64,000 bases of DNA from Streptomyces sp. NBC_00654. GTDB lineage: Bacteria > Actinomycetota > Actinomycetes > Streptomycetales > Streptomycetaceae. The translations under genes and the position numbers were made by a program. Position 1 is the first letter of the stretch, and every line of letters starts with the position of its first letter. The DNA is taken from assembly GCF_026341775.1 (NCBI RefSeq), contig NZ_JAPEOB010000007.1:20283-84282 (forward strand), read 5' to 3'. Of this stretch, positions 1,626 to 59,539 are shown piece by piece. The notes under the pieces were generated by a model. That model was not told the DNA's origin and did not search any database. It saw only the letters and a program-made list of their open reading frames with translations.

Positions 1626-2299
1626 GCGGCCCGCCCCCACACGCTGGTGCCCGGCCGTCCGGCCCGGCGCCCGTTGATGGACGGCACCGTGACGTGCTGC
1701 GCCGTCGCGAGGGCCGCGCGGCCGGAGTGCTTGCCGTCGTAGAGGGCGGCATCTGCGGCCCTCTGCAACACGGTCAGGTCGCAGGAGCCGACCGAGGCCG
1801 GGGTCGCGGCGCCGACCGAGGCGGCGACGTCGACGGTGCGGCCGTCGTCCAGGGTGACCGGGGTGTGCAGCATCCGGACCAGCTGCTCCAGGCGGTGTGC
1901 AAGGCGGTCGGGGGTCAGCTCCAGGACCACTGCGAACTCATCGCCCCCGAGCCTGCCGATCGCTGCGCGCGGGCCCGCCCACGCGGTGAGCCGGGCTCCG
2001 ATCGCAGCGAGGACCGTGTCCCCGGCCGCGTGGCCCATGCCGTCATTGATCTGCTTGAAGTGGTCGGCGTCGACCATCACCACGGTCACCTTGTCGCCGT
2101 GGCGGGCCAGGAGCCGGCGGGCGCGGGCGGTGTAGGCGTCGCGGCGCAGCAGGCCGGTCAGCGGGTCGCGGCGGCTCGCGGCGATCTTCTTGTGCAGGGC
2201 GATGGCGTGGACGGCCCAGCCGGTCAACGGCACGGCTGCGGTCGTCAGGAGGAGTGTGCGCTGCCCGAACCGGGCCTGTGTGCGCAGGACGGAGCCCAT
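1622..2299 (-). CDS. Membrane-anchored diguanylate cyclase-like GGDEF protein
   Basis: This 225-residue protein has one N-terminal hydrophobic segment (about 14-32) and then a GGDEF domain. The domain starts at DPLTGLLRR and includes DADHFKQINDGMGHAAGD and an intact RLGGDEF active site, so it should make cyclic di-GMP from two GTP. The RxxD inhibitory site five residues before GGDEF is absent, so product inhibition at that site is unlikely. The ATG at 2299 has a GAGGGAGA site. No EAL or PAS domain is attached. It is coupled to the ASCH gene by an ATGA overlap. Confidence 0.9.
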   Translation of the reverse strand: MGSVLRTQARFGQRTLLLTTAAVPLTGWAVHAIALHKKIAASRRDPLTGLLRRDAYTARARRLLARHGDKVTVVMVDADHFKQINDGMGHAAGDTVLAAIGARLTAWAGPRAAIGRLGGDEFAVVLELTPDRLAHRLEQLVRMLHTPVTLDDGRTVDVAASVGAATPASVGSCDLTVLQRAADAALYDGKHSGRAALATAQHVTVPSINGRRAGRPGTSVWGRAA

Positions 2300-3688: not shown

Positions 3689-4651
3689 TCACTCGCGGAC
3701 CGCGGCCGCGTACTGCGCTTCCAGGTCGGCGCGGCCCTCGGGGTCGTGGTCCTGGTCCTCGTCGGTGTTCGGGCCGTGGACGGTGCAGACGATGTCCTGG
3801 TCGTAGTCCAGGTCGCCGTTCAGCGCCCGGAACAGGCAGGTGACGCTGTAGGCGGGTACCCAGGCGTAGCCGGTGCACTTGTAGTCGTGCGGGCACGGGA
3901 CGGCGACGTCGAACCCGTAGTCGCCCTCGCCGTCGACGTTCGGGCGGAACGCGAGGGTGAGGTACATCTGCCCGAGGCGGATCTCCGCGACGCGGTCGCC
4001 GCCGACGATGTTCGAGCCGTCCTTCCACCGCCACAGAGGCAGGATCTCCGGGCCGAACACCCGGCGGGGGAGCAGCAGATCACCGAGGCAGTCGCCGTTG
4101 TCCAGTCCGAGGTCGGCCTGGCGCTTCTCGCTGAGCCGCTCCAGGAACGGCAGCAGCTGGTAGAGGCTCTCGGAGTAGGCGACCTCGGTGAAGCCTTCCG
4201 ACTTGAGGCCACGCCGCTGGGAGTTGACCATGTCCTGCCGCTGCCGGATGACGGCCTCTTCCGGCACGCGGCGGTTGGCCGGCCGCGCGCCCTGCCGGTC
4301 CACGCACACCGTGCCGGGCGTGGAGACCATGAGCGCGATGGGGAGCATGTCGTGCCGCTTGGCGGCGGCGATCAGTGGCTCCCTGGAAGCGCTGGTGACG
4401 TTTGTGGCGTCGATGACCGTGAACAGCCGTCGGCGCATCCTCGCCTCCAGGAGCAGGTGCAGGGCGGCGACCGCGTCGCCGGTCGCGTCCTGGTCGCCCG
4501 CGTCGTCGCTGACGACCTCCCGCAGCGCGTCCAGGGACAGGACCTGCGAGGCGGGCCAGGTGTTCGCGATGGTGGTCTTCCCGGCTCCGGAGGGGCCGAT
4601 GAGGACGACCAGGCTGTTCTCGGGCATCTGCGGGTAGTACGGCGCGGTCAT
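3689..4651 (-). CDS. P-loop kinase / AAA-type ATP-binding protein
   Basis: The protein has 320 residues. A Walker A motif, GPSGAGKTT, sits at about 19-27, followed by LSLDALREVVSDD and VIDATNVT, the layout of polynucleotide-kinase-like (AAA_33) P-loop proteins. The C-terminal 130 residues form an added domain with CPHDYKCTGY and an acidic tail. It may phosphorylate a nucleic acid end or small molecule; the substrate is unknown. The ATG at 4651 follows AAGGAG. Confidence 0.8.
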   Translation of the reverse strand: MTAPYYPQMPENSLVVLIGPSGAGKTTIANTWPASQVLSLDALREVVSDDAGDQDATGDAVAALHLLLEARMRRRLFTVIDATNVTSASREPLIAAAKRHDMLPIALMVSTPGTVCVDRQGARPANRRVPEEAVIRQRQDMVNSQRRGLKSEGFTEVAYSESLYQLLPFLERLSEKRQADLGLDNGDCLGDLLLPRRVFGPEILPLWRWKDGSNIVGGDRVAEIRLGQMYLTLAFRPNVDGEGDYGFDVAVPCPHDYKCTGYAWVPAYSVTCLFRALNGDLDYDQDIVCTVHGPNTDEDQDHDPEGRADLEAQYAAAVRE

Positions 4652-14360: not shown

Positions 14361-16550
14361 TCAGTTCTCGTTGTGTACGCGTGCGCTGGGCGTGAGCAGG
14401 CCCGCGTCGACGGTCGCGTCGGCGACGGGACGATGGTCACGGTTCATGGCCGTCTCCTCCGCCTCGGACAGCTCGGCCGCCTCCAGGCAGGCCTTGGCCA
14501 TCCGTGCGACGTGGCGGATGAGACCGGAGATCTCATTCGCCACTTCGGCCAGGGCCGACATCAGCTCCTTGCTGCCCACGTTGTGGTCCTCGGCAAGGTC
14601 ATCGGCCATGGCCTGCACCACGCTGAGCAGCCGCCGGCCGGACTTGACCAGGGACTCGCAGTCGTCGTGCGTGTCCATGCCCTGCGTCGTCAGCTTGTCC
14701 AGCGACCTGCAGACATCGTCGAGCGTGATGTCGGTCATGTGCCGGCCGCTCGCGACCTTCGTCACGGTGAACTTCGGGATCACTGGTTCCATGGGAATTG
14801 CCTTCCTCTTACGGGTCGTACCGGGCCTCTTGCCTGCCGGGCGCTGCGGCGCACGGGGCAGGGCCGACGGTCCGGACTGCGGGATGCCGCGCCGGGCGGG
14901 CGCGATCGGGGCGGGCTCCCACGGCTTGCTGTTGCGGCGTGCCGGACCGGCCTGGGTCCAGATGACCGTCGCGGGCTCCTGCGCACCGACGTCCCACGGC
15001 GAGGTACGGGACCAGCCGAAGCCCGGACCCGAACCAGGAGTACTGCCGGCCGGGCCTGGCCCGGCCTTACCGGGCGGGGTCTTCTTCCATGGCCCCTTGC
15101 CCGCCGCTGCACCGGGACCGCTCCCCGTCCCGCCACCGGTGGGGGTGTTCGTCGGGCCGCCGGGGGCGGAGGTGTTCTTCGGTCCGCCGGGCGTTTTCTT
15201 CTTCCACGGTCCCTTGCCCGCCGCTGTACCCGGGCCGGTTGCCGTCCCGCCACCGGTGGGGGTGTTCGTCGGGCCGCCGGGGGCGGAGGTGTTCTTCGGT
15301 CCGCCGGGCGTTTTCTTCTTCCACGGTCCCTTGCCCGCCGCTGTACCCGGGCCGGTTGCCGTCCCGCCACCGGTGGGAGTGTTCGTCGGACTGCCGGGCG
15401 GGCCGCTCGTACTGCTGCGGCGCTTCTTCCAGCGAGCTGCCATCGTCTCGCCGACCGCTTGCCAGAACGTCGTGCGCCCCGTGCCCGGTGCGGCGCCGCT
15501 GGAGGAGCCGTTGACGCCGCCGGGCGGTGTGGTAATGCCGCTGTTGGGCTTGTTCGGCTTACTCAGGACCGGCGTCGGCGGCTGACGCCGGTTCCACCGG
15601 TCCTGCACCGTGTTGCCGACGGCCTGGGGGAGCGTCGTCCGCTGGTGCTTCGACCCGCCTTTCGACGTGCCGCCGGACGCTCCCGAGGACCCTGACGTCC
15701 CAGGCCCGTTCGACCTGCCCCGGCCCTCTGAGCTCCGCCCGGGACCGGTCCCTCCGCGGCCGGCGCCGGCGCCGGCGCCCTGCTGGCCGGAGCCCGATGA
15801 GCCCGACCGGCCAGAACCCTTCGGGCCGGATCCCGACCGGCCGGAGTTGTTCTGGCCGCCCGGACTGTTGGACTTCCCGCCACCGGAACTACCGGAAGGT
15901 CCGGGCTTGTTGGGAGCGGTCCGCGACGAGCCCGACGAGCCCGCCCCTGAACCTCCAGACGGCCCCCTGGAGCCCTTCCGTGACCCGCCCGGCCCCATCG
16001 GGCCACCGGACCGTCCCGGGCCGCCAGAACCCTGCCCACGGGCCGTCCTGCCGTACTCGTGGGACGACTGCACACCACGCTGCGCCTTGGCGCGCTCGGC
16101 GACAGCCTGTGCGGCGAACCGTGTCCCGTCCGCGTCGGCCTTGGCCGACAGCATTTCCATTGCGCGTTTGTGTTTCCCGGCCTCCGCCCTGCGCGGACCG
16201 GATTCCTGCACCCAGGTACGGATTCCCTCGAAAGCGGCGAGAGCGATTGCCAGAATCGCGGCCATCGAAAGCGCCCCCGTGCGGGGCGCCCCGGCGTCGG
16301 CCGGAGCGTCTCCCGGGCCTTCGCTGCGGAAAGTCGGGGGGACAACTCCCGCCGGGGGCGTGGCAATAGACGGTGCGGGTGCGTCGAACGGGGAAACCCG
16401 GACCGGTTCCGTTCTGTCACTGTTTCCCGCTCCCGTTCCCGTCCCACTGTCCGATGTCAGTACCGGAGCAGGCGGGACTGCGGGAGGCGGGGGCAGAGAG
16501 CCGATCCGGGGGATCGGGACCACGTTGTCCGGGCCTTGATCGTCGGACAC
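14361..16550 (-). CDS. Anchored Gly/Ser/Pro-rich repeat protein of the transfer region
   Basis: The protein has 729 residues from a GTG at 16550 with GGGAGGG 3 bases upstream. Order: Pro-rich N-terminus, one membrane helix (ALSMAAILAIALAAFEGI), a Gln/Ala/Arg coiled stretch, about 350 residues of Gly/Ser/Pro low complexity including three 39-residue repeats, then a folded helical C-terminal domain (DITLDDVCRSLDKLTTQGMD onward). A possible internal start at 14794 would give the C-terminal domain alone. It may span or scaffold the cell wall at the transfer site; that role is inferred. Confidence 0.72.
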   Translation of the reverse strand: MSDDQGPDNVVPIPRIGSLPPPPAVPPAPVLTSDSGTGTGAGNSDRTEPVRVSPFDAPAPSIATPPAGVVPPTFRSEGPGDAPADAGAPRTGALSMAAILAIALAAFEGIRTWVQESGPRRAEAGKHKRAMEMLSAKADADGTRFAAQAVAERAKAQRGVQSSHEYGRTARGQGSGGPGRSGGPMGPGGSRKGSRGPSGGSGAGSSGSSRTAPNKPGPSGSSGGGKSNSPGGQNNSGRSGSGPKGSGRSGSSGSGQQGAGAGAGRGGTGPGRSSEGRGRSNGPGTSGSSGASGGTSKGGSKHQRTTLPQAVGNTVQDRWNRRQPPTPVLSKPNKPNSGITTPPGGVNGSSSGAAPGTGRTTFWQAVGETMAARWKKRRSSTSGPPGSPTNTPTGGGTATGPGTAAGKGPWKKKTPGGPKNTSAPGGPTNTPTGGGTATGPGTAAGKGPWKKKTPGGPKNTSAPGGPTNTPTGGGTGSGPGAAAGKGPWKKTPPGKAGPGPAGSTPGSGPGFGWSRTSPWDVGAQEPATVIWTQAGPARRNSKPWEPAPIAPARRGIPQSGPSALPRAPQRPAGKRPGTTRKRKAIPMEPVIPKFTVTKVASGRHMTDITLDDVCRSLDKLTTQGMDTHDDCESLVKSGRRLLSVVQAMADDLAEDHNVGSKELMSALAEVANEISGLIRHVARMAKACLEAAELSEAEETAMNRDHRPVADATVDAGLLTPSARVHNEN
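15084..15434 (-). repeat. Three 117-bp tandem repeats within the Gly/Pro-rich gene
   Basis: Copies begin at 15084, 15201 and 15318, exactly 117 bases apart. Each encodes 39 residues around GPWKKKTPGGPKN and TPTGGGTATGPGTAAGK. Copies 2 and 3 are nearly identical, which points to recent unequal exchange and likely length variation between strains. Confidence 0.9.
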
Positions 16551-20358: not shown

Positions 20359-20499
20359 GGGGGGGGTCCTCTCTCTTCCGGGCGCCTCGTGCAAGAGGTC
20401 ACGGTGGATCTACGGCGGTGGGTAAGGTTGTGACCAGGCCCTCCGGAACCCCGGCAGCTCTGATGCCGAGGTCCCGGAGGGCCGTTGTGCTGGAGTGAT

Positions 20500-20877
20500 T
20501 CAGCGCCGGACGGGCAACGCGCTGTTGTGCTGCGCGAGGTGCTGGCGCAGCCAGGCGACGGCGGCCGGGGTCATCGCCCCGGTGTCCGGCTCGCTCAGCG
20601 GCGCGGTGTCGATGTCGCGCATCGCGTCCGTCGCCGGGAGCGGCCTCATGTAGTCGGGGTCGATCCCGCCGCGGGCGCGGTTGCCGCTCGCGTTGAGTTC
20701 TATGAGGTCGTAGAGGAGCCGGTGGTTGTGGACGTTCGTCCAGGACCGCTCCACCCGGCCGATGAACGTGTGGCCGGGCAGCCCGAGCCAGAACCGCTCG
20801 ACGTCGCGGAACAGGACCAGGTCCCCCTTGAGGTAGCGGGTCTGCGGTCGTACGGCGGGCTGCGTCTGCTGTGCCAT
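20500..20877 (-). CDS. Hypothetical protein, beta-rich
   Basis: This 125-residue protein starts at the ATG at 20877 with GAGGAG 6 bases upstream. It has a YLKGDLVLFRDVERFWLGLPG segment like a small beta barrel and then a helical region. It is one of a run of short leftward genes separated by hairpins. No family recognised. Confidence 0.7.
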   Translation of the reverse strand: MAQQTQPAVRPQTRYLKGDLVLFRDVERFWLGLPGHTFIGRVERSWTNVHNHRLLYDLIELNASGNRARGGIDPDYMRPLPATDAMRDIDTAPLSEPDTGAMTPAAVAWLRQHLAQHNSALPVRR

Positions 20878-20925
20878 GGGCTCTCCTCGTATCGCGTGTA
20901 CCGGCGCAGGGCCGGCGGTCCGGTC

Positions 20926-20992
20926 TGTCCGGCTCCCCGTCACCGCCCGACCCGGCCGCCGTAGTCGGCGGTCGGTGCGGGCGGATCAGGCA
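20926..20992 (-). repeat. Constant-flank hairpin cassette, copy 1
   Basis: TGTCCGGCTCCC-n-GTCAC (20926-20943), then a 40-base hairpin (20944-20983), then GATCAGGCA. The hairpin sequence is the exact reverse complement of the one in copy 2, while the flanks keep their orientation. It lies between a stop at 21006 and a start at 20877. Confidence 0.8.
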
Positions 20993-21005
20993 ACTGGCAG
21001 TCGGG

Positions 21006-21182
21006 TCACTGCGCGGCGGTGGTCACCTCGTCGCGGGTGGGGAAGTTGCGGCGGCCGTCGTCCATGCGGACCGTCAGGTGGCCGCCGGTGTGGACCTCTT
21101 CGACGGTTCCCTGGGCCCCTGCCTGGTGGCGGGTGCCGAGCGCCTCGATGTCCGTGGTGAGCTTGATGCGGTCTCCGCGCAT
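21006..21182 (-). CDS. DUF4314-like small SH3-fold protein
   Basis: A 58-residue protein starting MRGDRIKLTTDIEALGTRHQ. The RGDRIKL, GAQGTVEEVH and VRMDDGRRNF segments are spaced like DUF4314/KOW-type small beta barrels. I chose the ATG at 21182 because AAGGG lies 6 bases before it; the ATG two codons earlier is too close to the ribosome site. Role unknown. Confidence 0.7.
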   Translation of the reverse strand: MRGDRIKLTTDIEALGTRHQAGAQGTVEEVHTGGHLTVRMDDGRRNFPTRDEVTTAAQ

Positions 21183-21205
21183 GGCCATCCCTTCGTGGTC
21201 CGGAC

Positions 21206-21272
21206 TGTCCGGCTCCCTGTCACCGCCCGCACCGACCGCCGACTACGGCGGCCGGGTCGGGCGGATCGGGCA
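21206..21272 (-). repeat. Constant-flank hairpin cassette, copy 2
   Basis: TGTCCGGCTCCC-n-GTCAC (21206-21223), a 40-base hairpin (21224-21263), then GATCGGGCA. The hairpin is inverted relative to copy 1. It lies between a stop at 21277 and a start at 21182. Confidence 0.8.
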
Positions 21273-21276
21273 GCCG

Positions 21277-21537
21277 TCAGGCCGCGACCGCGGCGAGGGG
21301 CCGGTGCGGGGCGATGATCTGGCCGTCGGGCAGCAGTTCCCCGGTGTCCTCAAACAGCACCAGGGCGTTGCACAGCAGGCTCCAGCCCTGCTCCGGGTGA
21401 GCGGCCACGACCTGCGCGGCCTCGCGGTCCGGGCTGGCGGCCGTCGGGCACTTCGGGGTGTGCTTGCACAGCGAGTCCGGCATCCGGGAGGCGCCGGTGG
21501 GGGTCGTCGCGGTGTCGAGCTGGTGGCTGCTTTCCAT
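21277..21537 (-). CDS. DUF5999-like protein
   Basis: This 86-residue protein contains SLCKHTPKCPTAASPDREAA, then GWSLLCNALVLFEDTGELLP and GQIIAPHRP, a strongly conserved Streptomyces pattern known as DUF5999. Three cysteines and a histidine could bind zinc. The ATG at 21537 follows GGAGAG. The function of the family is unknown. Confidence 0.8.
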   Translation of the reverse strand: MESSHQLDTATTPTGASRMPDSLCKHTPKCPTAASPDREAAQVVAAHPEQGWSLLCNALVLFEDTGELLPDGQIIAPHRPLAAVAA

Positions 21538-21675
21538 GGAGCTCTCCTGCGGGGAGGAACGCGGTCCCGGGATTGTTCCGGGCTGGAGACGTGCGAGATG
21601 GCCGGTTGCCCGCCGTGCGGACAGCCGTTGTGCTGGGGTGCTGCGAGGCGGGCCGGAAGTTGCCCGGCGCTCCCG

Positions 21676-21978
21676 TCAGGCGGTGCGCTTGCGGGCGGCG
21701 CGGCGCCTGATCCGGCGGCGGTCGTCCGCGTCGGTGCCGCCCCACACGCCATGCTCCTGGCCGCTCTCCAGCGCCCACTGCAGGCAGCGCTCCATGACGG
21801 GGCAGCTACGGCAGACGGCCTTGGCTTCCTCGATCTGGAGCAGCGCCGGGCCGGTGTTGCCGATCGGGAAGAACAGCTCGGGGTCTTCGTCCGTGCAGGC
21901 GGAGGCGGCCCGCCAGTTGGTGTTGACCGGCAGGTCGGCGGAGGGCGCGTAGACCGCGTTCACGATGGAGTGGTTCAT
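21676..21978 (-). CDS. WhiB-like transcription factor
   Basis: A 100-residue Wbl protein. Four cysteines at 28, 56, 59 and 65 would hold a [4Fe-4S] cluster; the GVWGG turn is at about 77-81, followed by a basic tail (RRRIRRRAARKR) for DNA contact. Wbl proteins usually act with the main sigma factor in response to redox or nitric oxide. It is plasmid-borne and probably controls plasmid or host development genes. The ATG at 21978 has AGAGG upstream. Confidence 0.92.
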   Translation of the reverse strand: MNHSIVNAVYAPSADLPVNTNWRAASACTDEDPELFFPIGNTGPALLQIEEAKAVCRSCPVMERCLQWALESGQEHGVWGGTDADDRRRIRRRAARKRTA

Positions 21979-22045
21979 CAGGGCCTCTCAGAAGGTCCGG
22001 GCAAGAGACAGCCCCGGGGGTGCATCCCCGGGGGCGGGCACGGGT

Positions 22046-22080
22046 ACGGCCGGTGGCCCGTCGTGCGGGCCACCGGCCGT
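22046..22080 (-). terminator. Perfect 15-bp hairpin
   Basis: Arms 22046-22060 and 22066-22080 are exact complements with loop TCGTG, between the stop at 22160 and the WhiB start at 21978. Confidence 0.65.
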
Positions 22081-22159
22081 GAACCGTGCAGGCAGGCGGG
22101 CAGGGAACTGGGTCCCGGTACCGCCCTGCGGGAGCAGCGGCAACCGCGGGCAGCGGGTG

Positions 22160-22738
22160 TCAGGCTGCGGCGGGTTCGGCGAGGTCGTCGGCTGCCGGGC
22201 CGTGGGTGCGGGCGAACCGGGCCCCGGCCCGGAGCAGGGCGACGATGTCCTGGTAGGTGCGGACCTGGCGCTCCGACCACGGCATGGCGCGGGCGGTGGC
22301 GGATCCGGTGTGGGCCTGGATCACTACGTCCAGTACCGAGCCCGCGAGCGACATGGTGTCCGTGTCGCCCTGGTCGCCCTCGCTGACCCGGGTCAGCGCG
22401 ATGCCCAGCGAGAGACGGCCGGCCGGGGAGTATTCGATCTCGTCCCGGATCAGCCGCAGCACGGCGCGGACCATGTCCTTGACCGTCATCCCGCTGTCGT
22501 CGGCCGGGAGGTCCGTGGTGCGGGCGGTGGTGTAGATCATGGTCCGGGACCAGCCGCTCTTCTCAAGGAGAGCGGCGGTGGCGTCGAGGTGGCGGGCCAC
22601 CGCCTCGCCGGTGTTCTGCTCGCCGGACTGGCCGGTCCAGAACGGGCGGTAGGAGTCGTCCGCGAGAACCTTGGCCGCAGTCAGCGTCTCATCGCTGAAC
22701 ACGGCGGCGGAAAGGGTGGGGGCGGTCTGCTGGGTCAT
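22160..22738 (-). CDS. Hypothetical helical protein
   Basis: This 192-residue protein starts at the ATG at 22738 behind GAGGATCAC. It is mostly helical: MVRAVLRLIRDEIEYSPAGRLSLG in the middle, an Ala-rich acidic tail, and no membrane segment. It resembles uncharacterised Streptomyces proteins of similar size, but I cannot name a function. Confidence 0.75.
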   Translation of the reverse strand: MTQQTAPTLSAAVFSDETLTAAKVLADDSYRPFWTGQSGEQNTGEAVARHLDATAALLEKSGWSRTMIYTTARTTDLPADDSGMTVKDMVRAVLRLIRDEIEYSPAGRLSLGIALTRVSEGDQGDTDTMSLAGSVLDVVIQAHTGSATARAMPWSERQVRTYQDIVALLRAGARFARTHGPAADDLAEPAAA

Positions 22739-22809
22739 GTGATCCTCGCTGTCTGCGAACGGGGCGGCCGGTCGTCCGGCCGGAGCGGAGGGTGATCTCC
22801 CGGCGCTCT

Positions 22810-22860
22810 CCACCGCCCCCGCCCCTCCCCTGGTAAAGAGGGGAGGGGCGGGGACGGTGG
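22810..22860 (-). terminator. 22-bp hairpin
   Basis: Long stem (one mismatch) with loop GGTAAAG between the stop at 22875 and the start at 22738. Confidence 0.65.
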
Positions 22861-22874
22861 GCTACGCCGGGCGG

Positions 22875-23072
22875 TCAGCCCTCCAGTCGGGCCTGCACAC
22901 GCATCAGGTCCTCGGTCGACATGGTCGCCGCGAGCTCCTCGACAGCGGCCGGGCCGCCGGACACGGCGGCGGAGACGACCGCGCCGGCCTGCGCCTTGGT
23001 GAGGTCGGCCTGAATCGCCTCCGCGACCACACCGCTCAGGGCGGCCGACATCTCGTCCAGGTTCTGCCACAT
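22875..23072 (-). CDS. 65-aa helical protein
   Basis: MWQNLDEMSAALSGVVAEAI then an Ala/Val-rich helical run and a basic end. The ATG at 23072 has GAGAGGGA upstream. Small, acidic, no cysteine. Function unknown. Confidence 0.65.
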   Translation of the reverse strand: MWQNLDEMSAALSGVVAEAIQADLTKAQAGAVVSAAVSGGPAAVEELAATMSTEDLMRVQARLEG

Positions 23073-23107
23073 GGTGATGTCCCTCTCGATCAGGTGCGGA
23101 TCCGGGC

Positions 23108-23174
23108 TGTCCGGCTCCCAGTCACCGCGCAGCGCCCACCGGCATCGGCCGGTGGGCGCTGCGCGGATCAGGCA
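23108..23174 (-). repeat. Constant-flank hairpin cassette, copy 3
   Basis: TGTCCGGCTCCC-n-GTCAC (23108-23125), a 40-base hairpin of unrelated sequence with a perfect 17-bp stem (23126-23165), then GATCAGGCA. It lies between a stop at 23191 and a start at 23072. Confidence 0.8.
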
Positions 23175-23190
23175 ACCTGAAGACCGGCCG

Positions 23191-23508
23191 TCACCAGCCG
23201 TTGAGGACCGCCTCGTAGTACGGCCAGCCGTGGCGGGCGGCGGCGGCGAGCTCCCGGGATCCCTGGGCGCCGTAGGCCCAGATCTCGGCTGCGATGTCGT
23301 GTCCGTCGGCGGTCAGCCGGTCGGCCTCGGCCTGCTGGCACCGGGCCGATTTCAGGTAGTCGGCGGCGAGGGCCTGCATCTCCGCGTAGCTGTAGAGCGT
23401 CGGCGGGGGCGGGGTGATCTCGCCGAGCACGAAGTAGTCGTCGATGGTGGCGGCCGTCCAGGTGGCCGGGTCGCCGTGGATGTCGCGGAATCGGTCGAGG
23501 GTGAGCAT
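23191..23508 (-). CDS. Hypothetical helical protein
   Basis: About 105 residues: MLTLDRFRDIHGDPATWTAA, then YSYAEMQALAADYLKSARC and an Ala-rich helix. GAGGAG lies 7 bases before the ATG at 23508 (another ATG at 23511). No family recognised. Confidence 0.65.
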   Translation of the reverse strand: MLTLDRFRDIHGDPATWTAATIDDYFVLGEITPPPPTLYSYAEMQALAADYLKSARCQQAEADRLTADGHDIAAEIWAYGAQGSRELAAAARHGWPYYEAVLNGW

Positions 23509-23529
23509 CATCGGTCTCCTCGCGTGTGG

Positions 23530-23721
23530 TCAGCGGGTGTTCAGGTGGTTGAGGTACTCGTCCTGGGCGGTGGCGAGCGCCTGGTAGTGCGGGGCGCCGC
23601 CGGTGCAGGCGGTCCCGGTCCGGGCGCGGATCCATGTCCGGCAGACCGGGCACGCCATGACGTGTGCGGTCCAGAGGTCACCGGCGCGGAGGTAGCGCTG
23701 GAGGAGCGTCGGGGCGGCCAT
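23530..23721 (-). CDS. 63-aa zinc-like protein
   Basis: MAAPTLLQRYLRAGDLWTAH, then MACPVCRTWIRARTGTACTG. CxxC plus a later Cys and His could form a zinc site. The ATG at 23721 overlaps the upstream TGA (ATGA), so it is coupled to the 139-aa gene. Confidence 0.7.
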   Translation of the reverse strand: MAAPTLLQRYLRAGDLWTAHVMACPVCRTWIRARTGTACTGGAPHYQALATAQDEYLNHLNTR

Positions 23722-24140
23722 CAGGCGGCCCGAAGTGCCGGTGCGGGGGCGGGGGCGACCCCACCGCAGTTCCCGGAGCACAGCCACCGGTCGCAGTTCG
23801 GGCATCGCTCGTCCGACGACCGGAAGGTCAGCGGGCGACCGAGCAGCAGTACCGGCTGTCGCTCGTAGCCGGGTGCCATCTCACCGAGCTTGCGGCGTGC
23901 GTGGCGGCCAGCGGTCGCGGCGCGGTGGTCGCCGTCGGCGACCAGCTGGTCGACGAGGCGGTGGTACTGCTGGGTGTCGGTCTCGTCGGGCATCGGGCCG
24001 AGGTCGGTGTCGCGCTGCTCCTCGTCCTCCAGCCATCCGGCACGCGGAGCCAGGGACGGGACGATGCTGCCATCGCAGGGGCCCGTCTGAGCCGGGCCGG
24101 TACGGGTGGTGCGGGCGGGGCGTGTCAAGATTCCGTTCAC
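23721..24140 (-). CDS. Hypothetical protein with C-terminal CxxC...CxxxC
   Basis: About 139 residues from the GTG at 24140 (GGGAG upstream). The middle is acidic and helical (DETDTQQYHRLVDQLVADGD); the C-terminus has CPNCDRWLCSGNC, a compact zinc knuckle. Coupled to the 63-aa zinc-like gene. Possibly a nucleic-acid-binding pair, inferred from the zinc motifs only. Confidence 0.7.
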   Translation of the reverse strand: MNGILTRPARTTRTGPAQTGPCDGSIVPSLAPRAGWLEDEEQRDTDLGPMPDETDTQQYHRLVDQLVADGDHRAATAGRHARRKLGEMAPGYERQPVLLLGRPLTFRSSDERCPNCDRWLCSGNCGGVAPAPAPALRAA

Positions 24141-24162
24141 AGGGACTCCCGGTTCCTGTACT

Positions 24163-24194
24163 GACGGCCCGGAGGAGGCAACCTCCGGGCCGTC
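24163..24194 (-). terminator. 13-bp hairpin
   Basis: Perfect stem with loop AGGCAA in the leader just upstream of the GTG at 24140. Confidence 0.6.
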
Positions 24195-24218
24195 GCCGTG
24201 GCTGGTCGGACGAGCAGC

Positions 24219-24263
24219 CACGGCCCGGGCCGTCCCGCGTGGGGCGGGACGGCCGGGGCCGTG
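24219..24263 (-). terminator. 20-bp hairpin
   Basis: Long GC stem with a few mismatches after the stop at 24278. Together with the next hairpin it fills the intergenic gap. Confidence 0.6.
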
Positions 24264-24277
24264 GTCGATCGTCCGGG

Positions 24278-24508
24278 TCAGAAACGGTCCGGGTGGGTGT
24301 GGTCAGCCCACCCGCCGGCAGGCCAGCCGCGAGCACCGGAGCGGGCGGTGGCCTCCGCCGTGGCGATCGCGGCGAACGCCTGCGCCACCGCGGCGTGGGT
24401 CCGGGCGGAGGCAGGCGAGCCGCCCTCCGCGTAAGCGGCTGCGCGGAGGGCGTGCTCAACCGCGCGGGAGTACGCCTCAGGGCCGGTCATGGTGGGCAGG
24501 TCAGTCAT
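24278..24508 (-). CDS. 76-aa Ala-rich helical protein
   Basis: MTDLPTMTGPEAYSRAVEHA, then repeated Ala-rich helices (RAAAYAEGGSPASARTHAAV). Amphipathic helical hairpin likely. Its ATG overlaps the stop of the upstream 82-aa reading. Role unknown. Confidence 0.7.
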   Translation of the reverse strand: MTDLPTMTGPEAYSRAVEHALRAAAYAEGGSPASARTHAAVAQAFAAIATAEATARSGARGWPAGGWADHTHPDRF

Positions 24509-24753
24509 GCGTGTTCCTCCTGGGTGACGAGCTGGTGATGGGCAGTCGGACGGGTCAGCGAGCAGGTCAAGCGGCCCTGGCGGCCAGCACCCACACCACC
24601 GGAGACGGGAGCGGCTCCAGCGGGGCCGGCGGGAGAGCCCGGACCGCGGGCGGCTCCATCCCGGACGGGAACTCCCGGCTCCGGGAGGTCTCCAGGTGTC
24701 CGAGCGCCTGATCGAGCAGCCCGGTCAGGACCGGCCATCAGAGTGGTACGCAT
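24505..24753 (-). CDS. Possible 82-aa Gly/Pro/Ala-rich protein
   Basis: The ATG at 24753 has GGAGG about 9 bases upstream and its TGA overlaps the next start (ATGA), which supports a real gene. The protein itself is low complexity (PAGPAGAAPVSGGVGAGRQG), so it could be a chance frame. Confidence 0.4.
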   Translation of the reverse strand: MRTTLMAGPDRAARSGARTPGDLPEPGVPVRDGAARGPGSPAGPAGAAPVSGGVGAGRQGRLTCSLTRPTAHHQLVTQEEHA

Positions 24754-24800
24754 CAGGGGGTCCTCCGGGGTCGGGGCGGCAGCGACTGCTGTACGAGCAG

Positions 24801-48352: not shown

Positions 48353-51241
48353 ATGCACGACGAGCCGGACCGCCAACGGTCAGCACAGTCCGAGCTGCGC
48401 TCAAGACTGGATGAGGGGCGGGCCCTCGCCCGCTTGGATAAGACGCAACTCTTCAAGAGAGCGGGACTGGGGCGTACGACGGTGTCGAACGCGCTCTCCC
48501 CCAACAAGGGGGTGCCGTCGGTAGACACGGTGACGGTGCTGGCCGACGTGCTGAAGCTGCCGAGGGAAGAGCTGCTGGAGTTGCGGCGGATCGCGGCCGG
48601 GGAGACAGGCACCACGTCCGCCGACATGTCGGGGCCGGGCCGGCCGATCGGGCAGTGGGATCCGCACGAACTGGAAGTCCACCCCGCCGGACCCGGCAAG
48701 AGCCCGTCGAACACCGACGGCGTGCGGGCACTGCCGGGGTATGCGCGACGCGAGCACGACCAGGTGCTGGCCAACGCGGTCACCGCGGCCGCCACGGGCC
48801 GCAGCCAGATCGTGGTCCTGGTCGGGGCCTCCTCGACGGGTAAGACCCGGGCGTGCTGGGAGGCCGTGCAGCCGCTCGCCGAGAAGGGCTGGCGGCTATG
48901 GCATCCCTTCGATCCGACCCGCGCCGAAGCCGCACTTGAGGAGCTGCACCGGGTCGGGCCGCAGACGGTGGTGTGGCTGAACGAGGCACAGCACTACCTC
49001 GGCGACCGGAAGTTTGGCGAGCGGATCGCGGCCGCAGTGCGCCAGCTGCTGCTCGACGAGGAACGCGGCCCGGTCCTGGCCCTGGGCACGCTGTGGCCCG
49101 AGTACGCACACCACTACACCGCCCTGCCCAAACCGGGCGGAGACGATTCGTACAGCCTGGTGCGGGAACTGATGGCCGGACACATGGTGAGTGTCCCCGA
49201 AACGTTTGACACAGCGGCCCTGACCGCTGCTGCGGCTCTTGCCGAGCAGGGCGACGCCCTGCTGGCCGATGCGCTCACCCGCAGCCGGAACGGCGGCCGG
49301 ATCACCCAGGATCTGGCCGGAGCTCCCGAGCTCCTGCGCCGCTACGAACAGCCCCGCCAGGCCGCCTCCCGCGCGCTTCTGGAGGCGGCGATGGACGCCC
49401 GCCGACTCGGTACGGGCCTCCACATCCCCCGGGCCTTCCTGACCGACGCCGCACGCGACTACCTCAGCGACCACGACTACGACCAGCTCACCGACGACTG
49501 GGCCGAACAGGCCTACGCCGAACTCGCCGAGCGGGTCCACGGCAAGCAAGAACCCCTGCGCCACACCACGCCCCGGCCCTCACAACGCCCGCCCACCCCC
49601 ACCACCGACGCCGTCACCACACCGCCGCCCCCCGCGGGCCCGGTGTTCCTGCTCGCCGACTACCTCGAACAACACGGCCGCACCACCCGCCGCCACCTGT
49701 GCCCACCCGCATCCTTCTGGTATGCCGCACACACCCACCTCACCCACCCCGACGACCTGAACAACCTCGCCCAAGCAGCCACAGACCGGCATCGCCTGCA
49801 ATGGAGTCACCACCTCCTCCAACGCGCCGCCGACCACGGCAACACCTACGCCCTGACCCACCTGGCCAAGAGGCGGGAGGAGGCCGGGGACCGGGACGGC
49901 GCCGAAACCCTCGCCCGGCAGGCCGCCGACCACGGCGACAGTGGTGCCCTACTCAGCCTGGCCGTGGGGCGGGAGCATGCCGGGGACCGGGACGGTGCCG
50001 AAGCCCTCTACCGGCAGGCCGCCGACCACGGCAACACCTACGCCCTGACCCACCTGGCCAAGAGGCGGGAGCATGCCGGGGACCGGGAGGGCGCCGAAGC
50101 CCTCTACCGGCAGGCCGCCGACCACGGCGACAGTGGTGCCCTACTCAGCCTGGCCGTGGGGCGGGAGCATGCCGGGGACCGGGACGGTGCCGAAACCCTC
50201 GCCCGGCAGGCCGCCGACCACGGCAACACCTACGCCCTGAACTACATGGCCGAGAGGCGGGCGGAGGCCGGGGACCGGGAGGGCGCCGAAGCCCTCTACC
50301 GGCAGGCCGCCGACCACGGCGACACCGGCGCCCTGATCCACTTGGCCAAGATGCGGGCGGAGGCCGGGGACCGGGAGGGCGCCGAAGCCCTCTACCGGCA
50401 GGCCGCCGACCACGGCGACACCGGCGCCCTGACCCGCTTGGCCGAGAGGCGGGCGGAGGCCGGGGACCGGGAGGGTGCCGCCTCCCTCGCCTGGCAGGCC
50501 GCCGACCACGGCGACACCGGCGCCCTGACCCGCTTGGCCAAGATGCGGGCGGAGGCCGGGGACCGGGACGGTGCCGAAGCCCTCGCCTGGCAGGCCGCCA
50601 ACCACGGCGACACCGGCACCCTGACCCACATGGCCGAGAGGCGGGTGAGGGCGGGGGACTGGGAGGGTGCCGCCTCCCTCTACCGGCAGGCCGCCGACCA
50701 CGGCGACACCTGGGCCCTGACCGTCTTGGCCGAGAGGCGGGAGGAGGCCGGGGACCGGGACGGCGCCGAAACCCTCGCCCGGCAGGCCGCCAACCACGGC
50801 GACACCGGCACCCTGACCCACATGGCCGAGAGGCGGGTGGAGGCCGGGGACTGGGAGGGTGCCGAAGCCCTCGCCCGGCAGGCCGCCGACCACGGCGACA
50901 CCGGCGCCCTGAACTACATGGCCGTAATGCGGGAGCATGCCGGGGACCGGGAGGGCGCCGAAGCCCTTGCCTGGCAGGCCGCCAACCACGACGACATCTG
51001 GGCCCTGACCCGCTTGGCCAAGATGCGGGAGCATGCCGGGGACCGAGAGGGTGCCGAAGCCCTCGCCCGGCAGGCCGCCGACCACGGCGACACCGGCGCC
51101 CTGACCCACCCAGAGGGGCCGCCGGACATCTTCAACAGGCTGTGGCCGTATGGCCTGGACCCGGACGGCACACCGACATTTCCATGGCAACCGTCCGTGT
51201 CCGTAGAACGGAGGGAACACGGACTGCCGGGCCCGTCATAG
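48353..51241 (+). CDS. XRE-STAND-like ATPase with 13 near-identical repeats
   Basis: 962 residues from the ATG at 48353 (GGAGG 7 bases upstream). The N-terminal XRE helix-turn-helix (about 20-80) is followed by a P-loop ATPase: GASSTGKT at about 158-165, VVWLNEAQHY as a Walker B-like strand. A helical linker precedes 13 copies of a 32-residue helix-turn-helix repeat (AADHGDTGALTRLAERRAEA then GDREGAEALYRQ) and half a 14th. The repeats resemble TPR/Sel1 units. STAND proteins are oligomerising switches that sense a target through such repeats. No nuclease or other effector domain is visible, so the XRE domain may be the output. Confidence 0.8.
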   Translation: MHDEPDRQRSAQSELRSRLDEGRALARLDKTQLFKRAGLGRTTVSNALSPNKGVPSVDTVTVLADVLKLPREELLELRRIAAGETGTTSADMSGPGRPIGQWDPHELEVHPAGPGKSPSNTDGVRALPGYARREHDQVLANAVTAAATGRSQIVVLVGASSTGKTRACWEAVQPLAEKGWRLWHPFDPTRAEAALEELHRVGPQTVVWLNEAQHYLGDRKFGERIAAAVRQLLLDEERGPVLALGTLWPEYAHHYTALPKPGGDDSYSLVRELMAGHMVSVPETFDTAALTAAAALAEQGDALLADALTRSRNGGRITQDLAGAPELLRRYEQPRQAASRALLEAAMDARRLGTGLHIPRAFLTDAARDYLSDHDYDQLTDDWAEQAYAELAERVHGKQEPLRHTTPRPSQRPPTPTTDAVTTPPPPAGPVFLLADYLEQHGRTTRRHLCPPASFWYAAHTHLTHPDDLNNLAQAATDRHRLQWSHHLLQRAADHGNTYALTHLAKRREEAGDRDGAETLARQAADHGDSGALLSLAVGREHAGDRDGAEALYRQAADHGNTYALTHLAKRREHAGDREGAEALYRQAADHGDSGALLSLAVGREHAGDRDGAETLARQAADHGNTYALNYMAERRAEAGDREGAEALYRQAADHGDTGALIHLAKMRAEAGDREGAEALYRQAADHGDTGALTRLAERRAEAGDREGAASLAWQAADHGDTGALTRLAKMRAEAGDRDGAEALAWQAANHGDTGTLTHMAERRVRAGDWEGAASLYRQAADHGDTWALTVLAERREEAGDRDGAETLARQAANHGDTGTLTHMAERRVEAGDWEGAEALARQAADHGDTGALNYMAVMREHAGDREGAEALAWQAANHDDIWALTRLAKMREHAGDREGAEALARQAADHGDTGALTHPEGPPDIFNRLWPYGLDPDGTPTFPWQPSVSVERREHGLPGPS
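49826..51073 (+). repeat. Thirteen 96-bp tandem repeats in the STAND-like gene
   Basis: Unit boundaries step by exactly 96 bases from 49826. Neighbouring copies differ at only a few bases, even at silent positions, and copies 2 and 4, and 1 and 3, match as pairs, showing block duplication. Copy number is likely to vary. Confidence 0.9.
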
Positions 51242-55106: not shown

Positions 55107-55378
55107 TGGCCCCGCAGCATGCCCCGCGCCGCGCCAGGATCGCGTTCAGCGACTCCGCGGCCAAGCAGCTCGAGGAACTCACCACCGAGCACGAGATCCA
55201 CGCCCTGGACCGCACCCTGGTCGCCATCTCAGTCGACCCGGAGATCGGCGAGCCGATCCCCGGGGACGGCACCCGGCCCGAGCTCCGCCAGTACACAGAT
55301 GAATTCGAACGCGTGCGCTGCGTGTACTACGTGAGCGCGCTCAAGACCGTGGTCGTCGTCGCGTACATCGAGGTCTGA
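55106..55378 (+). CDS. RelE/ParE-like toxin
   Basis: 90 residues: ARIAFSDSAAKQLEELTTEH, HALDRTLVAISVDPEIGEPI, then FERVRCVYYVSALKTVVVVA. The order of two helices then three strands fits RelE/ParE-type toxins, which cut mRNA on ribosomes or block gyrase. The basic C-terminal residues common in RelE are few. Coupled to the antitoxin gene; likely plasmid maintenance. Confidence 0.7.
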   Translation: MAPQHAPRRARIAFSDSAAKQLEELTTEHEIHALDRTLVAISVDPEIGEPIPGDGTRPELRQYTDEFERVRCVYYVSALKTVVVVAYIEV

Positions 55379-55395
55379 CCAGCGAAGGAGTCACT

Positions 55396-55914
55396 GTGCC
55401 GTCGATCGTCCAGAAGCTCTCCGGCCGCCGCGCCATCGGAGGGCTGCGCATGCCGGTGCAGTGTTCCCTCAAGACCGCCGTTGTGCGTGAGGGCCCGGCG
55501 CAGAGCTCCGGAGCGGGCGCGGCCTGGATCGCGTACCTGTGCCCCGTGCACGCCGCGGACCTGGACGGGTGGCCCGGCGTCACGGACCACCCCGAGACCG
55601 GCCCGATGTCGTGCGGCACCGTCCTTGACTACCGCTCCCCCGAGGAGCAACTCCAGTCGCACGCCGATCTGTGGCTGACCCGCCTGACCGGCGTCGACCC
55701 GGCAGCATACGACGGGGTGTGGGCCGAAGTTCTCGACCAGGCCGACCGCGTACTGCTCACCCGGTTCGAGGAAGCCGGCACTACCGGCGAGGACAGCCCG
55801 CTGCAGAACATGCTGGCGCCGATGGACATGGCCCGGCAATACGCCGCCGAGGGCGATCTCGGGATGGCGGCAACGAGCCTCGGGTACTGCGAGACCTTCG
55901 CCCGGAACCTGTGA
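55396..55914 (+). CDS. Hypothetical protein next to the toxin pair
   Basis: 172 residues: MPVQCSLKTAVVREGPAQSS, AAWIAYLCPVHAADLDGWPG and a helical C-terminal half (EVLDQADRVLLTRFEEAGTT). Cys/His spacing might hold a metal. It starts 17 bases after the toxin and may share its transcript. No family recognised. Confidence 0.65.
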   Translation: MPSIVQKLSGRRAIGGLRMPVQCSLKTAVVREGPAQSSGAGAAWIAYLCPVHAADLDGWPGVTDHPETGPMSCGTVLDYRSPEEQLQSHADLWLTRLTGVDPAAYDGVWAEVLDQADRVLLTRFEEAGTTGEDSPLQNMLAPMDMARQYAAEGDLGMAATSLGYCETFARNL

Positions 55915-56057
55915 CTGCCCGGCCCGGGCGCTCCTCCGTCAGCCGGGGCCGACGGCTCCTCCGCGGACCGGGTCCGCAGAGGGTCCAGCAGAGCGTTCGC
56001 ACGACCCGGACGGCACACGGGGCCTGCCCCGGGTAGCAGGCCCTTACAGCACCAGGC

Positions 56058-56101
56058 AGCGGCCGTGCAGCAAACGAACAACCGTTTGCTGCACGGCCGC
56101 T
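56058..56101. terminator. 19-bp hairpin between convergent genes
   Basis: AGCGGCCGTGCAGCAAACG pairs perfectly with its mirror arm around a 6-base loop. It serves both the gene ending at 55,914 and the one ending at 56,112. Confidence 0.85.
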
Positions 56102-56111
56102 TCTCGCGCGA

Positions 56112-56504
56112 TCAGTCGGTGGTGCCGGTGGCCCACCGCTCCAGCTCACCCACCGGCGTCCTCAGCAGCGTGCGCCGGCGGGACTGCGCGGTCGCCCGGC
56201 TCTCCAGGTGCATCGCCCTCGCCAGGTCGGCGTGCGAGATGTCCTTGGCGGCGGGCTGGCGCAGGGAGGCATCCCGTACGGCCTCCAGCCGCTCCATGAG
56301 CCCGGTGGTGCCCTCGATGGTGGTGGCGAGGTCGGCGCTGCTCGTATGGCCCGTGCGCAGCAGCGCCAGCCCGTGCAGCGCGGTGGCCAGCAGTGTGGCC
56401 AGCTGCTCACCGTCGCCGCCGAGCAGGGCGGCGTCCGCGGCGGTGAGCGGGACCGCAAGGTCGGGGCGGCCGAGGTGGTTGGTGTTCTCAGGCTCGGTGT
56501 TCAC
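56112..56504 (-). CDS. Helical hypothetical protein
   Basis: 130 residues, Ala/Leu-rich: LTAADAALLGGDGEQLATLL, DLATTIEGTTGLMERLEAVR, with a basic segment near the end (RATAQSRRRTLL). No membrane helix. Function unknown. It lies 32 bases downstream of the RapZ-like gene. Confidence 0.65.
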   Translation of the reverse strand: MNTEPENTNHLGRPDLAVPLTAADAALLGGDGEQLATLLATALHGLALLRTGHTSSADLATTIEGTTGLMERLEAVRDASLRQPAAKDISHADLARAMHLESRATAQSRRRTLLRTPVGELERWATGTTD

Positions 56505-56536
56505 CGGGCCTCCTTCGGGTGGTGTGTGGGCCGTGC

Positions 56537-56977
56537 TCAGCGGGTGACGACGTCCTTGTCGAGGTCGCGGTGGTGGACCTCGACGGCCAGACCGCGTGCC
56601 TCGTACCGTTCGGCGAGATCGCCGACCCGGTATCCGGCGGCAGCCGCGGTGTCACCGGAGAGCACAGCAGCGAGTGCGTCCGCCACGGTCGCAGACCGAT
56701 GGCGACCGCCGGCGCACCCGACCGCCACGGTCACCGGTTCGTCCTGGCGCGGCCCGGCGAGGTAGGCGTCCACGGTGGCGGCCATCGCGTGCACGAGCGG
56801 CAGGATGCCGTCGGTCCCCATGACCGTCTCGCGCACAGCGGCGTCCCGGGCGGTGAGGTAGCGCAGTTCGGGCCGCAGGTGAGGGTCCCTGAACTGGTGG
56901 CGCAGGTCGTAGCACGCGTGCGCGGGCGGCTCCTGGTCGTGCAGATAGCCGAACGAGGTGATCACTACGGTGTTCAT
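56537..56977 (-). CDS. RapZ C-terminal-domain-like protein
   Basis: 146 residues from the ATG at 56977 (GGAGG upstream): VVITSFGYLHDQEPPAHACY, DLRHQFRDPH, then GCAGGRHRSATVADALAAVL. The last segment is the phosphate-loop-like GCTGG.HRSV motif of the RapZ C-terminal domain, found alone here without the ATPase half. In other bacteria that domain senses amino-sugar phosphates or binds RNA. Its role on this plasmid is unknown. Confidence 0.75.
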   Translation of the reverse strand: MNTVVITSFGYLHDQEPPAHACYDLRHQFRDPHLRPELRYLTARDAAVRETVMGTDGILPLVHAMAATVDAYLAGPRQDEPVTVAVGCAGGRHRSATVADALAAVLSGDTAAAAGYRVGDLAERYEARGLAVEVHHRDLDKDVVTR

Positions 56978-57075
56978 CGGTGGCCCTCCAGAGGTGACCG
57001 GGTGCTGGGCGTGAGTGCTGCCGGAGAGCGATGACATTCGGGGCGGTGTGCCCGGCCCGGCGGCACGTGGGCGGT

Positions 57076-57558
57076 TCAGACGTGCTGGGCGGGGTAGCCG
57101 GCGGCGGTGTCCACGAACTGGTCGTGGGCGAGCATCGCGGCCTCGCGTGCGGTGGTGAGTTCCTCGGTGCTGCCGAAGTGGTCCCGGATCGCGTACGTCA
57201 GCGTGATCATGTGGTCGGCGGCGGTGCGTACGGCCGGGTCTGTGATGAGGACGCGCATCGTGACCAGTGGGCGGGTGACCTGGGAGCGGGTCTGGTGGCT
57301 CTCCCGGCGCAGAGACTGGACCAGCTCGGTGCTGGCTCCCTTCAGGACCGCGTCGCCGCGCATCCACATCGTGCGGCGGTGGTCGCTGGCGGCGCAGGCC
57401 AGCGCGGTGACGGCGTCCAGGCGGTCCCTCCGGATCGTTTCGCCGTGGTTCACGCGGACGGACCGCTCGGCGGCCCGTTCCTGGAAGCGGCCGCTGACGA
57501 ACGAGCCGAGGAGCGTGCCGACGACGGCGATAGTGGCGGTGACGAGGGCGAGTAACAC
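57076..57558 (-). CDS. Membrane-anchored protein, paralog of the gene at 49-603
   Basis: 160 residues from the GTG at 57558 with AAGGA upstream. N-terminal hydrophobic anchor, then SGRFQERAAERSVRVNHGET and GDAVLKGAS as in the copy at 49. Shorter by about 24 residues at the C-terminus. It faces the replication region across a strong palindrome, which may be its operator. Function unknown. Confidence 0.75.
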   Translation of the reverse strand: MLLALVTATIAVVGTLLGSFVSGRFQERAAERSVRVNHGETIRRDRLDAVTALACAASDHRRTMWMRGDAVLKGASTELVQSLRRESHQTRSQVTRPLVTMRVLITDPAVRTAADHMITLTYAIRDHFGSTEELTTAREAAMLAHDQFVDTAAGYPAQHV

Positions 57559-57565
57559 GGCGGGT

Positions 57566-57628
57566 CCTTCCCTAGGTGTATGAACTTCAATACACTCACT
57601 GTATGGAACTTCATACACCTAGGGAAGG
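57566..57628. promoter_or_regulatory. 63-base nested palindrome, probable operator
   Basis: Outer arms of 19 bases (57566-57584 and 57610-57628) are exact complements. Between them TTCAATACA and TGTATGGAA form a second dyad with one mismatch. It lies just upstream of the leftward gene at 57,558. Two stacked dyads in one site suggest paired regulator dimers. Confidence 0.7.
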
Positions 57629-57669
57629 GGCCCTCTCGTGTTTCTTTTCGCGGCGCTACGACCTGCGCG

Positions 57670-57986
57670 TTTCCCGCCTGCGGGAAACATATGCGCGTAT
57701 CTGACATACGCGTCCCGCGTGCGGGACGTGGTGACGCTCCTGGCGTGGGTCCGGTTTCCCCTCCAGGGGAACGATGTTCACGCGGCTCCGCAGCGGCCCT
57801 GTGAGCTGGCGCAGTCCGGAGGCAGTGTCGCAGCCGACACAACGCGGACGGGCCTTGGAACTGCAGGTTTCCCCTCCAGGGGAACGATGTTCCACTTCTG
57901 CGTGGACAGCATGGCCACTTCCGCGTGGACAAATCCACACCTGAGGCGTCGCCGACCTGCTGGTTTCCCGCCCAGGGGAACGATGT
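57670..57986 (+). repeat. Palindromic repeats, left group of the telomere-proximal replicon
   Basis: GGTTTCCCCTCCAGGGGAACGATGTT occurs at 57753 and 57866, with a variant at 57962. Related dyads TTTCCCGCCTGCGGGAAA and CGTCCCGCGTGCGGGACG lie at 57670 and 57711. CCACTTCYGCGTGGACA also repeats at 57892 and 57915. Spacing between the main units is 96-113 bases. No gene lies in 57,630-58,057. Confidence 0.8.
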
Positions 57987-58057
57987 ATCGCCCTCAGCAC
58001 GCGCAAGAACGGCGCTGCACCGTGAGGAGGTGCAGCGCCGCGGTGCGAGCGGTGTGG

Positions 58058-58905: not shown

Positions 58906-58921
58906 ACCGCTCCTCACCTTG

Positions 58922-59047
58922 GGATTTCCCCCAGAGGGGAACGATGTACGCGGCCTGACCGTAGCGACCCTTTCCCCTCCAGGGGAACCCGCCACGCCGA
59001 CCGGCACCAGGATCCAGACCGGCGAGTGTTTCCCCTCCAGGGGAAAG
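58922..59047 (+). repeat. Palindromic repeats, right group
   Basis: Units at 58922, 58971 and 59027 (TTTCCCC, 3-4 bases, GGGGAA), 49-57 bases apart, just upstream of protein A. They are the same family and orientation as the left group. Confidence 0.85.
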
Positions 59048-59279
59048 GTGCGTCCCAATCTGACACTCAAATAGCCTCGATTGATACATCACATGGCCTC
59101 TGACCAGCGACGATGCGTGTTCCCTCTATACGTACCTATCCGTAGGCTCCAACCAGCCCCCTCCCGCACGTGAGGGCCAGCCACCGTGTCGCACTGCCCT
59201 CTCGACTCCAGGGCTGCCCTCTGAGCCTGTACGTGGCTTACGGCGTGCCCATCCTTACTAATCTCCCGCCAATTCATCG

Positions 59280-59470: not shown

Positions 59471-59539
59471 CCTACCCGCTCCGATCTCCGTTCGATCCGC
59501 CACCCGTCCCGACTGTCCGTCACCACCCCTTCTCCTTGT

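Follow-up and report, generated by a model that had tools for sequence, protein, structure and literature searches.

A recurrent intercistronic hairpin element of Streptomyces plasmids, and the probable origin of one copy with a backward core

How does the middle of a conserved intergenic element come to lie backwards between flanks that have kept their direction? The window, by which we mean the whole stretch of DNA analysed (64,000 nucleotides, the final 64,000 bases of an 84,282-base contig), raises this question in an array of genes that read best on the minus strand. An inverted-repeat search of the window returned 20943-20984 and 21223-21264 as exact reverse complements over 42 of 42 nt, with 238 nt between the arms; the elements that hold them, A and B, lie 280 bp apart, and an exact inverted pair of this length and spacing is far beyond chance. 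As the earlier note had described, the flanks of A and B are near-identical and point the same way while the cores differ by exact reversal, and a third site, element C, does have a different hairpin with another arm sequence. All three belong to one direct repeat family, D1 (20917-21000, 21197-21280 and 23099-23182). On the plus strand their common flanks read GRTCCGGnCTGTCCGGCTCCCnGTCACC ... GGATCRGGCA, longer than first reported; a 12-mer of the flank alone, with up to 2 mismatches, was found 24 times against 17.5 expected, that is, not beyond chance. The reading that we consider probable is that these sites are copies of one intercistronic structured RNA element of Streptomyces plasmids, and that the core at B is probably that of A, copied in inverted by a template switch. 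The features are as follows; elements A, B and C all formed part of the alignment behind the covariance model that scored them.

20500..20877, minus strand: gene downstream of A, 125 aa, no Pfam match
20914..20999, minus strand: element A, left flank, hairpin and right flank, with canonical core; covariance-model match of 92.0 bits, E 3.3e-16
20943..20984, minus strand: hairpin of element A by RNA fold, 42 nt, exact reverse complement of 21223-21264
21006..21188, minus strand: 60-aa gene separating B from A, DUF4314-like below cut-off (16.5 bits, cut-off 27)
21194..21279, minus strand: element B, with a core inverted by arm signature; covariance-model match of 87.6 bits, E 2.6e-15
21223..21264, minus strand: hairpin of element B, running opposite to that of A and to its ortholog in the nearest of the relatives compared
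21277..21537, minus strand: DUF5999 gene upstream of B (117.9 bits, cut-off 27.5), whose stop codon opens element B
21676..21978, minus strand: WhiB-type regulator gene of the same array (89.8 bits, cut-off 23.6)
22875..23072, minus strand: gene downstream of C, 65 aa, no Pfam match
23096..23181, minus strand: element C, perfect 19-bp stem, other arm sequence; covariance-model match of 67.8 bits, E 3.2e-11
23125-23166: inverted repeat of element C
23191..23511, minus strand: gene upstream of C, 106 aa, no Pfam match

The array thus runs: 106-aa gene, C, 65-aa gene, DUF6197, WhiB, DUF5999, B, 60-aa gene, A, 125-aa gene. Hairpins that lack these flanks occur in other gaps of the same array (20437-20483, 22046-22080 and 22790-22880). 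A scan for promoters of the sigma-70-like type found no such site in 20400-24800. The relatives of the contig and its gene content suggest that it is a Streptomyces plasmid.

The hairpin element is widespread and is not named by Rfam. We assembled 120 distinct elements from 93 loci (68 elements from genome_contigs, 28 from other genomes, 21 from plasmid records and 3 from the window), counting a sequence present in two sources only once (L133 contributes nothing new) and leaving out both copies of the window (L002-L004, L020, L031, L034 and L116) and matches judged to be chance (L001, L018, L019, L024, L028 and L035). All 120 passed a filter of three of the five outer pairs, and the collection pattern fixed the right flank, so the conservation of the outermost pairs and of the right flank is partly a product of selection; the left flank in the loci found in genome_contigs by the right-flank pattern is free of it. 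A strict pattern matched in 25 of 392 Streptomyces-group genomes, the window's own included, with 4 of the 25 judged to be chance. The right-flank pattern yielded 72 loci in genome_contigs, all titled Streptomyces except "Actinobacteria bacterium OK074".

The flank pair is also present in other Streptomyces plasmids, where the earlier note had proposed to look: at an E limit of 10, 144 of the 369 matching plasmid records cover at least 80% of element A. Element B matched 121 plasmid records at E 1e-3, Streptomyces in every case, and the stretch from A to B matched 125, of which 124 are Streptomyces and one Kitasatospora. The window's own genome holds three copies on the window contig and at least two on another contig, and the first 20,000 bases of the window contig hold none; the covariance-model searches covered 89 and 9 sources rather than the whole genome. 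Among phage records none covers 80% of element B, and viral contigs gave one match, which lacks the element, and no match for the whole element. Rfam release 15 gave no match at gathering score in the window; what it matched in 20880-23200 and in the L067 element stayed below threshold throughout. The element was not found in the titles and abstract openings of literature on conserved hairpins and RNA motifs of Streptomyces plasmids, papers matched by the flank 12-mers concern other subjects only, and the literature searched gave no mention of DUF5999.

The flanks might have been common leader sequence that occurs without hairpins, a doubt raised in the earlier note, and this is not what we found, as a left-flank partner lies near nearly all right-flank matches. 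In the genome_contigs loci the right flank alone has 78 exact matches, with an exact TGCCYGATC within 75 nt upstream in 70; the others have a one-base variant (5) or a shortened form (1) or are cut by the end of the stretch (2). The covariance model, which many of these loci had helped to build, matched with the hairpin included at all 72, the hairpin being partial at L039 and L047, where the stretch is incomplete. Two variants deserve mention. In 9 of the 120 elements (L017, L021, L029, L054, L058, L062, L070, L094 and L101) the left flank TGCCTGATC is doubled, about 21 nt apart, before the hairpin; the earlier of the two copies may still belong to the coding sequence of the upstream gene, as its end. 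A possible sister type (L043 3481-3560, L078 4560-4634 and L107 4083-4157) matches the model weakly, at 35-42 bits, and keeps GGGAGCCGGACAG with another internal loop.

Read on the gene strand, the flank consensus is TGnCGGCTGCCYGATC before the hairpin and GTGACnGGGAGCCGGACAGYCCGGACC after it. A short outer helix and a conserved internal loop are followed by the hairpin, which varies between elements, and by a small third helix. RNAalifold, applied to 56 elements (set A1 is 56 of the 117 non-redundant elements), drew the outer helix as GCU-CC/GG-AGC, the internal loop as YGAU/UGACn, the base of the variable hairpin, and the third helix as CGG/CCG. The three window cores all measure 40 nt, which had suggested a rule of exactly 40 bases; over the 120 elements cores range from 19 to 67 nt, with 41 nt in 34 and 40 nt in 15, so the agreement in the window is coincidental.

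Pairing in the element is conserved through changes of sequence. In an alignment of 125 distinct rows, made by fitting to the model and including two or more antisense rows, 99.1% of 1845 cells are paired, against 24-62% when the structure is slid along the alignment. Double changes occur in 6 of 15 pairs and amount to 44 cells, compared with 3.8 in shuffles, and none of 500 shuffles reached 44. The compensatory signal is strong at the hairpin base, with double changes in five of seven pairs, and weak in the outer helix, where one of five pairs has a double change (2 compensatory cells, 32 G-U cells, 8 unpaired); the third helix has no double change in this alignment. At the level of aligned sequences, the variable hairpin is shown to be free in both sequence and length while its pairing covaries. 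Loop composition does not differ clearly from that of nearby spacer.

Wobble pairs bear on which strand acts. In the gene sense G-U exceeds A-C by 87 to 37 when the conserved mismatch positions 7, 8 and 12 are omitted (position 12 is mostly A-C), an excess that moderately favours a gene-sense RNA; the support is only moderate because a C-to-T bias and shared ancestry could contribute to it. The outer helix formed in the folds of B and of the 86-nt A, and was absent from the 150-nt minimum free energy fold of A and from both folds of C. The 150-nt stretch around A folded no better than shuffles (z -0.61), and the plus strand folded about as well as the gene strand. The element most likely works as an RNA on the gene strand. 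Several known structures were considered and set aside: a kink-turn for the YGAU/UGACn loop, considered on paper, was dropped when its bulge did not fit the outer helix chosen by RNAalifold; c-di-GMP-II-GCG at site C was sub-threshold (19.8 bits, cut-off 47.9) and did not recur with the consensus-like L067 element; and miRNA-type Rfam matches appeared at permissive E-values only.

The position of the element between genes is regular. In 119 of 120 elements an upstream open frame terminates close to the left flank, its stop codon standing exactly 7 nt before TGCC in 60, and 112 of these 119 upstream frames have strong third-position GC. A coding-like sense start follows in 105 of the 120, and 77 of the 105 starts fall 41-58 nt past the hairpin; on the antisense strand, used as a control, 85 of 120 have a start and only 16 of the 85 lie at that distance, so that start distances separate the strands and start counts do not. 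From its place in these sequences, the element is shown to follow a co-directional stop closely and usually to precede the next start by 41-58 nt. Downstream proteins form seven clusters of at least six members; when upstream and downstream frames were clustered jointly the two largest merged, perhaps through over-long upstream frames, and the description of the downstream genes as unrelated is therefore safe for about six clusters. Among 16 fetched plasmid stretches, whose gene tables are incomplete, gene order is similar in most, with WhiB annotated in 13, DUF5999 in 11, and DUF2637 and a divergent GntR gene in 7 each. The annotated plasmid stretches contain 26 gene-strand elements: 25 lie outside ORFs, overlapping them by at most 14 nt, and one (L113 4998-5083) lies inside.

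These regularities suggest that the element is probably an intercistronic RNA element of control or insulation. We propose that the flanks form the outer helix (GGCUGCC/GGGAGCC), the YGAU/UGACn internal loop and the small third hairpin, and that a factor, or the translation or decay machinery, would recognise this flank structure and so set apart neighbouring genes of one operon. The variable hairpin would act as a clamp, and conserved flanks around a free stem would resemble a recognised RNA core. A bolder version, which we think unlikely, makes the element an intercistronic RNA switch of a new class, common to unrelated genes of plasmid operons. Here the extended outer helix (CGGCU/AGCCG), which formed in the fold of site B, would compete for bases with the third hairpin (CGG-ACAGY-CCG), a factor at the YGAU/UGACn loop would coordinate the expression of many small plasmid genes, and replication would keep rewriting the clamp hairpin, having once inverted one.

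If the element were instead a DNA operator, with a plasmid regulator binding half sites in the flanks across an incidental hairpin spacer, one would understand why the flanks are extremely conserved (partly by our selection), why they form imperfect inverted repeats of about 14 nt, and why the right flank contains CCGG-ACAGY-CCGG. A spacer of 19-67 nt would nonetheless shift the helical phase freely, yet pairing within it is kept by compensatory changes, and it is to the preceding gene's stop codon that the element is anchored, not to operon starts; such an operator is doubtful. Quite unlikely, too, is a transcription terminator or attenuator, although strong gene-strand hairpins do stand between genes (z -2.7, -3.5 and -6.9 for the three 86-nt elements): there is no U-tract, GTGACnGGGAGCC following the hairpin instead, a scan for U-tract terminators flags none of the three sites, and termination leaves about 27 conserved nt past the hairpin unexplained. 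That the element is a mobile palindromic repeat of REP or MITE type inserting in gaps accords with its presence in several gaps and before several protein clusters, but is very improbable given the fixed stop-codon spacing and clustered start spacing on one strand and the occurrence of A and B at the same positions in several plasmids.

The closest published analogue found to the intercistronic RNA element is the ESAS of mycobacteriophages (PMC3203893). SAS and ESAS are likewise conserved repeats before the starts of many gene families, mostly in one orientation, and imperfect inverted repeats around a variable spacer, with the upstream stop codon sometimes inside. Our element, too, stands before a gene and has imperfect inverted repeats on either side of a spacer that varies, a resemblance only, as the sequences and spacer length differ. 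The SAS 13-mer GGGATAGGAGCCC stands 3-7 bp before the start and the ESAS spacer is mostly 4-13 bp, its authors finding little support for pairing in mRNA, whereas here a covarying hairpin of 19-67 nt forms the spacer, and the start mostly comes 41-58 nt after it. The 13-mer has one match with 2 mismatches in the window (1993-2005; 2.34 expected) and none at the elements.

The origin of the backward core can be approached through the arms of the hairpin. In cores of 38-47 nt (n = 91, with counts not corrected for relatedness) arm positions 7 and 8 are both unpaired in 57, both paired in 23 and singly paired in 11, the typical mismatch, CA against GT or GA, occurring in 50. Relative to this state the left arm has become complementary to the right in 11 cores, the right arm to the left in 7, and both have been exchanged in one, window B. 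Arms are thus homogenised in both directions with neighbouring positions changing together, and in one case the middle is inverted between matching arms as a derived state, which is the pattern left by polymerase template switching in a quasi-palindrome. The earlier note had suggested that the inner part can be inverted independently of the flanks. This holds for one site (21223-21264); by arm signature B is the sole clearly inverted core among the 99 scored in the 120 elements, and all 22 cross-locus pairs that align better after reversal involve it.

In a tree of the sequence outside the hairpins, built from nine of 12 chosen loci (the window and eight relatives), the neighbour of the window is Streptomyces sp. 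G-G2 (L100), with support of 100/99. The site-B core of L100 matches window B at 95% identity after reverse complementation and at 78% in the direct sense. This nearest of the eight compared relatives keeps an uninverted B core, and the inversion was therefore derived in the lineage of the window. Gene conversion, the other suggestion made earlier, survives in outline: A and B match in their cores at 100% after reverse complementation and at 78% directly, whereas no other pair within a locus (30 within-locus pairs in all) exceeds 90% directly or 83% after reversal. Had an L100-like core simply been flipped, 2 differences from A should remain, and the window shows none; inverted copying from A into B is therefore the simpler account, and the exact identity suggests it. 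An exchange between A and B together with a flip is, like inverted copying, simpler than a plain flip; a local flip at B followed by 2 substitutions may also have produced the inverted core.

We suggest that a replicating strand would switch templates between the arms, a step made possible by the quasi-palindromic nature of the hairpin. Such a switch would homogenise the arms, the outcome seen repeatedly, and could copy the middle in backwards. At B the core of A would have been copied in inverted, with breakpoints inside the terminal CCGCCCG/CGGGCGG arms, and the function of B should survive because only pairing matters. Arm homogenisation and spacer inversion are the known products of template switching between inverted repeats (PMC8604942), and the same two outcomes appear here, arms corrected either way and one middle turned round completely, its breakpoints lying in the terminal arms. 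The spacer inversions described in that paper are in yeast coding genes and involve 2-5 substitutions. Here, in contrast, the inverted middle measures 28 nt, lies on a bacterial plasmid-like contig and was apparently copied from an element 280 bp away. The backward hairpin most likely arose when the replication machinery slipped, and not by the action of a dedicated cassette system. The related plasmid L110 carries a hybrid element (4000-4085) that matches window B exactly in its left flank and window A exactly in its right, and it lacks the gene that separates the two in the window; this arrangement reflects either direct recombination between A and B or an older state.

A site-specific cassette, its core inverted or exchanged by a recombinase within constant flanks so as to act as a switch, is extremely unlikely: the exact inversion within direct flanks and the different core at site C speak for it, against one clearly inverted core in 120 elements, cores of varying length, the little that flipping a nearly symmetric hairpin alters, and 18 PF00589 (tyrosine) and 6 PF00239 (serine recombinase) matches in the window's own genome of which none is on the window contig, although a recombinase may act from elsewhere in the genome. 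The idea that cores are swapped as small cassettes fails also on the hairpins themselves, which diverge by compensatory change, the arm type of element C recurring at other loci with paired substitutions (CGCGCAGCGCCC in the window, CGCGAAGCGCCC in L112). An integron attC site is an imperfect hairpin with conserved ends and a variable middle, placed after the stop of an ORF, and carries a box of GTTRRRY/RYYYAAC type. Our element shares the hairpin, its ends and middle, and the position past a stop; it differs in that its flank table has no conserved box of this type, the contig has no tyrosine recombinase, and gene order is similar in most plasmid stretches examined.

The main yield of the analysis is the element family and its record of template switching. 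If our reading is right, Streptomyces plasmids have a common intercistronic element linking many small genes annotated without function, beside DUF5999 and WhiB. They would also hold a natural record of bacterial template switching, in which one orthologous site is found canonical, homogenised either way and inverted; as several states are seen at the same orthologous site, template switching could be counted by sequencing alone.

Other repeats of the window lie apart from the gene array. A 96-base period marks a tandem array at 49730-51181 (reported as 13 overlapping 300-nt copies), and a 117-base unit is repeated three times in tandem at 15070-15420. A palindrome at 55362-63353, centred near 59848, has perfect arms of 659 nt (58993-59651 and 60046-60704) that extend outward as diverging inverted arms on the 84,282-base contig; it may represent a head-to-head junction of two linear-plasmid ends, whether a genuine fusion or a product of the assembly.
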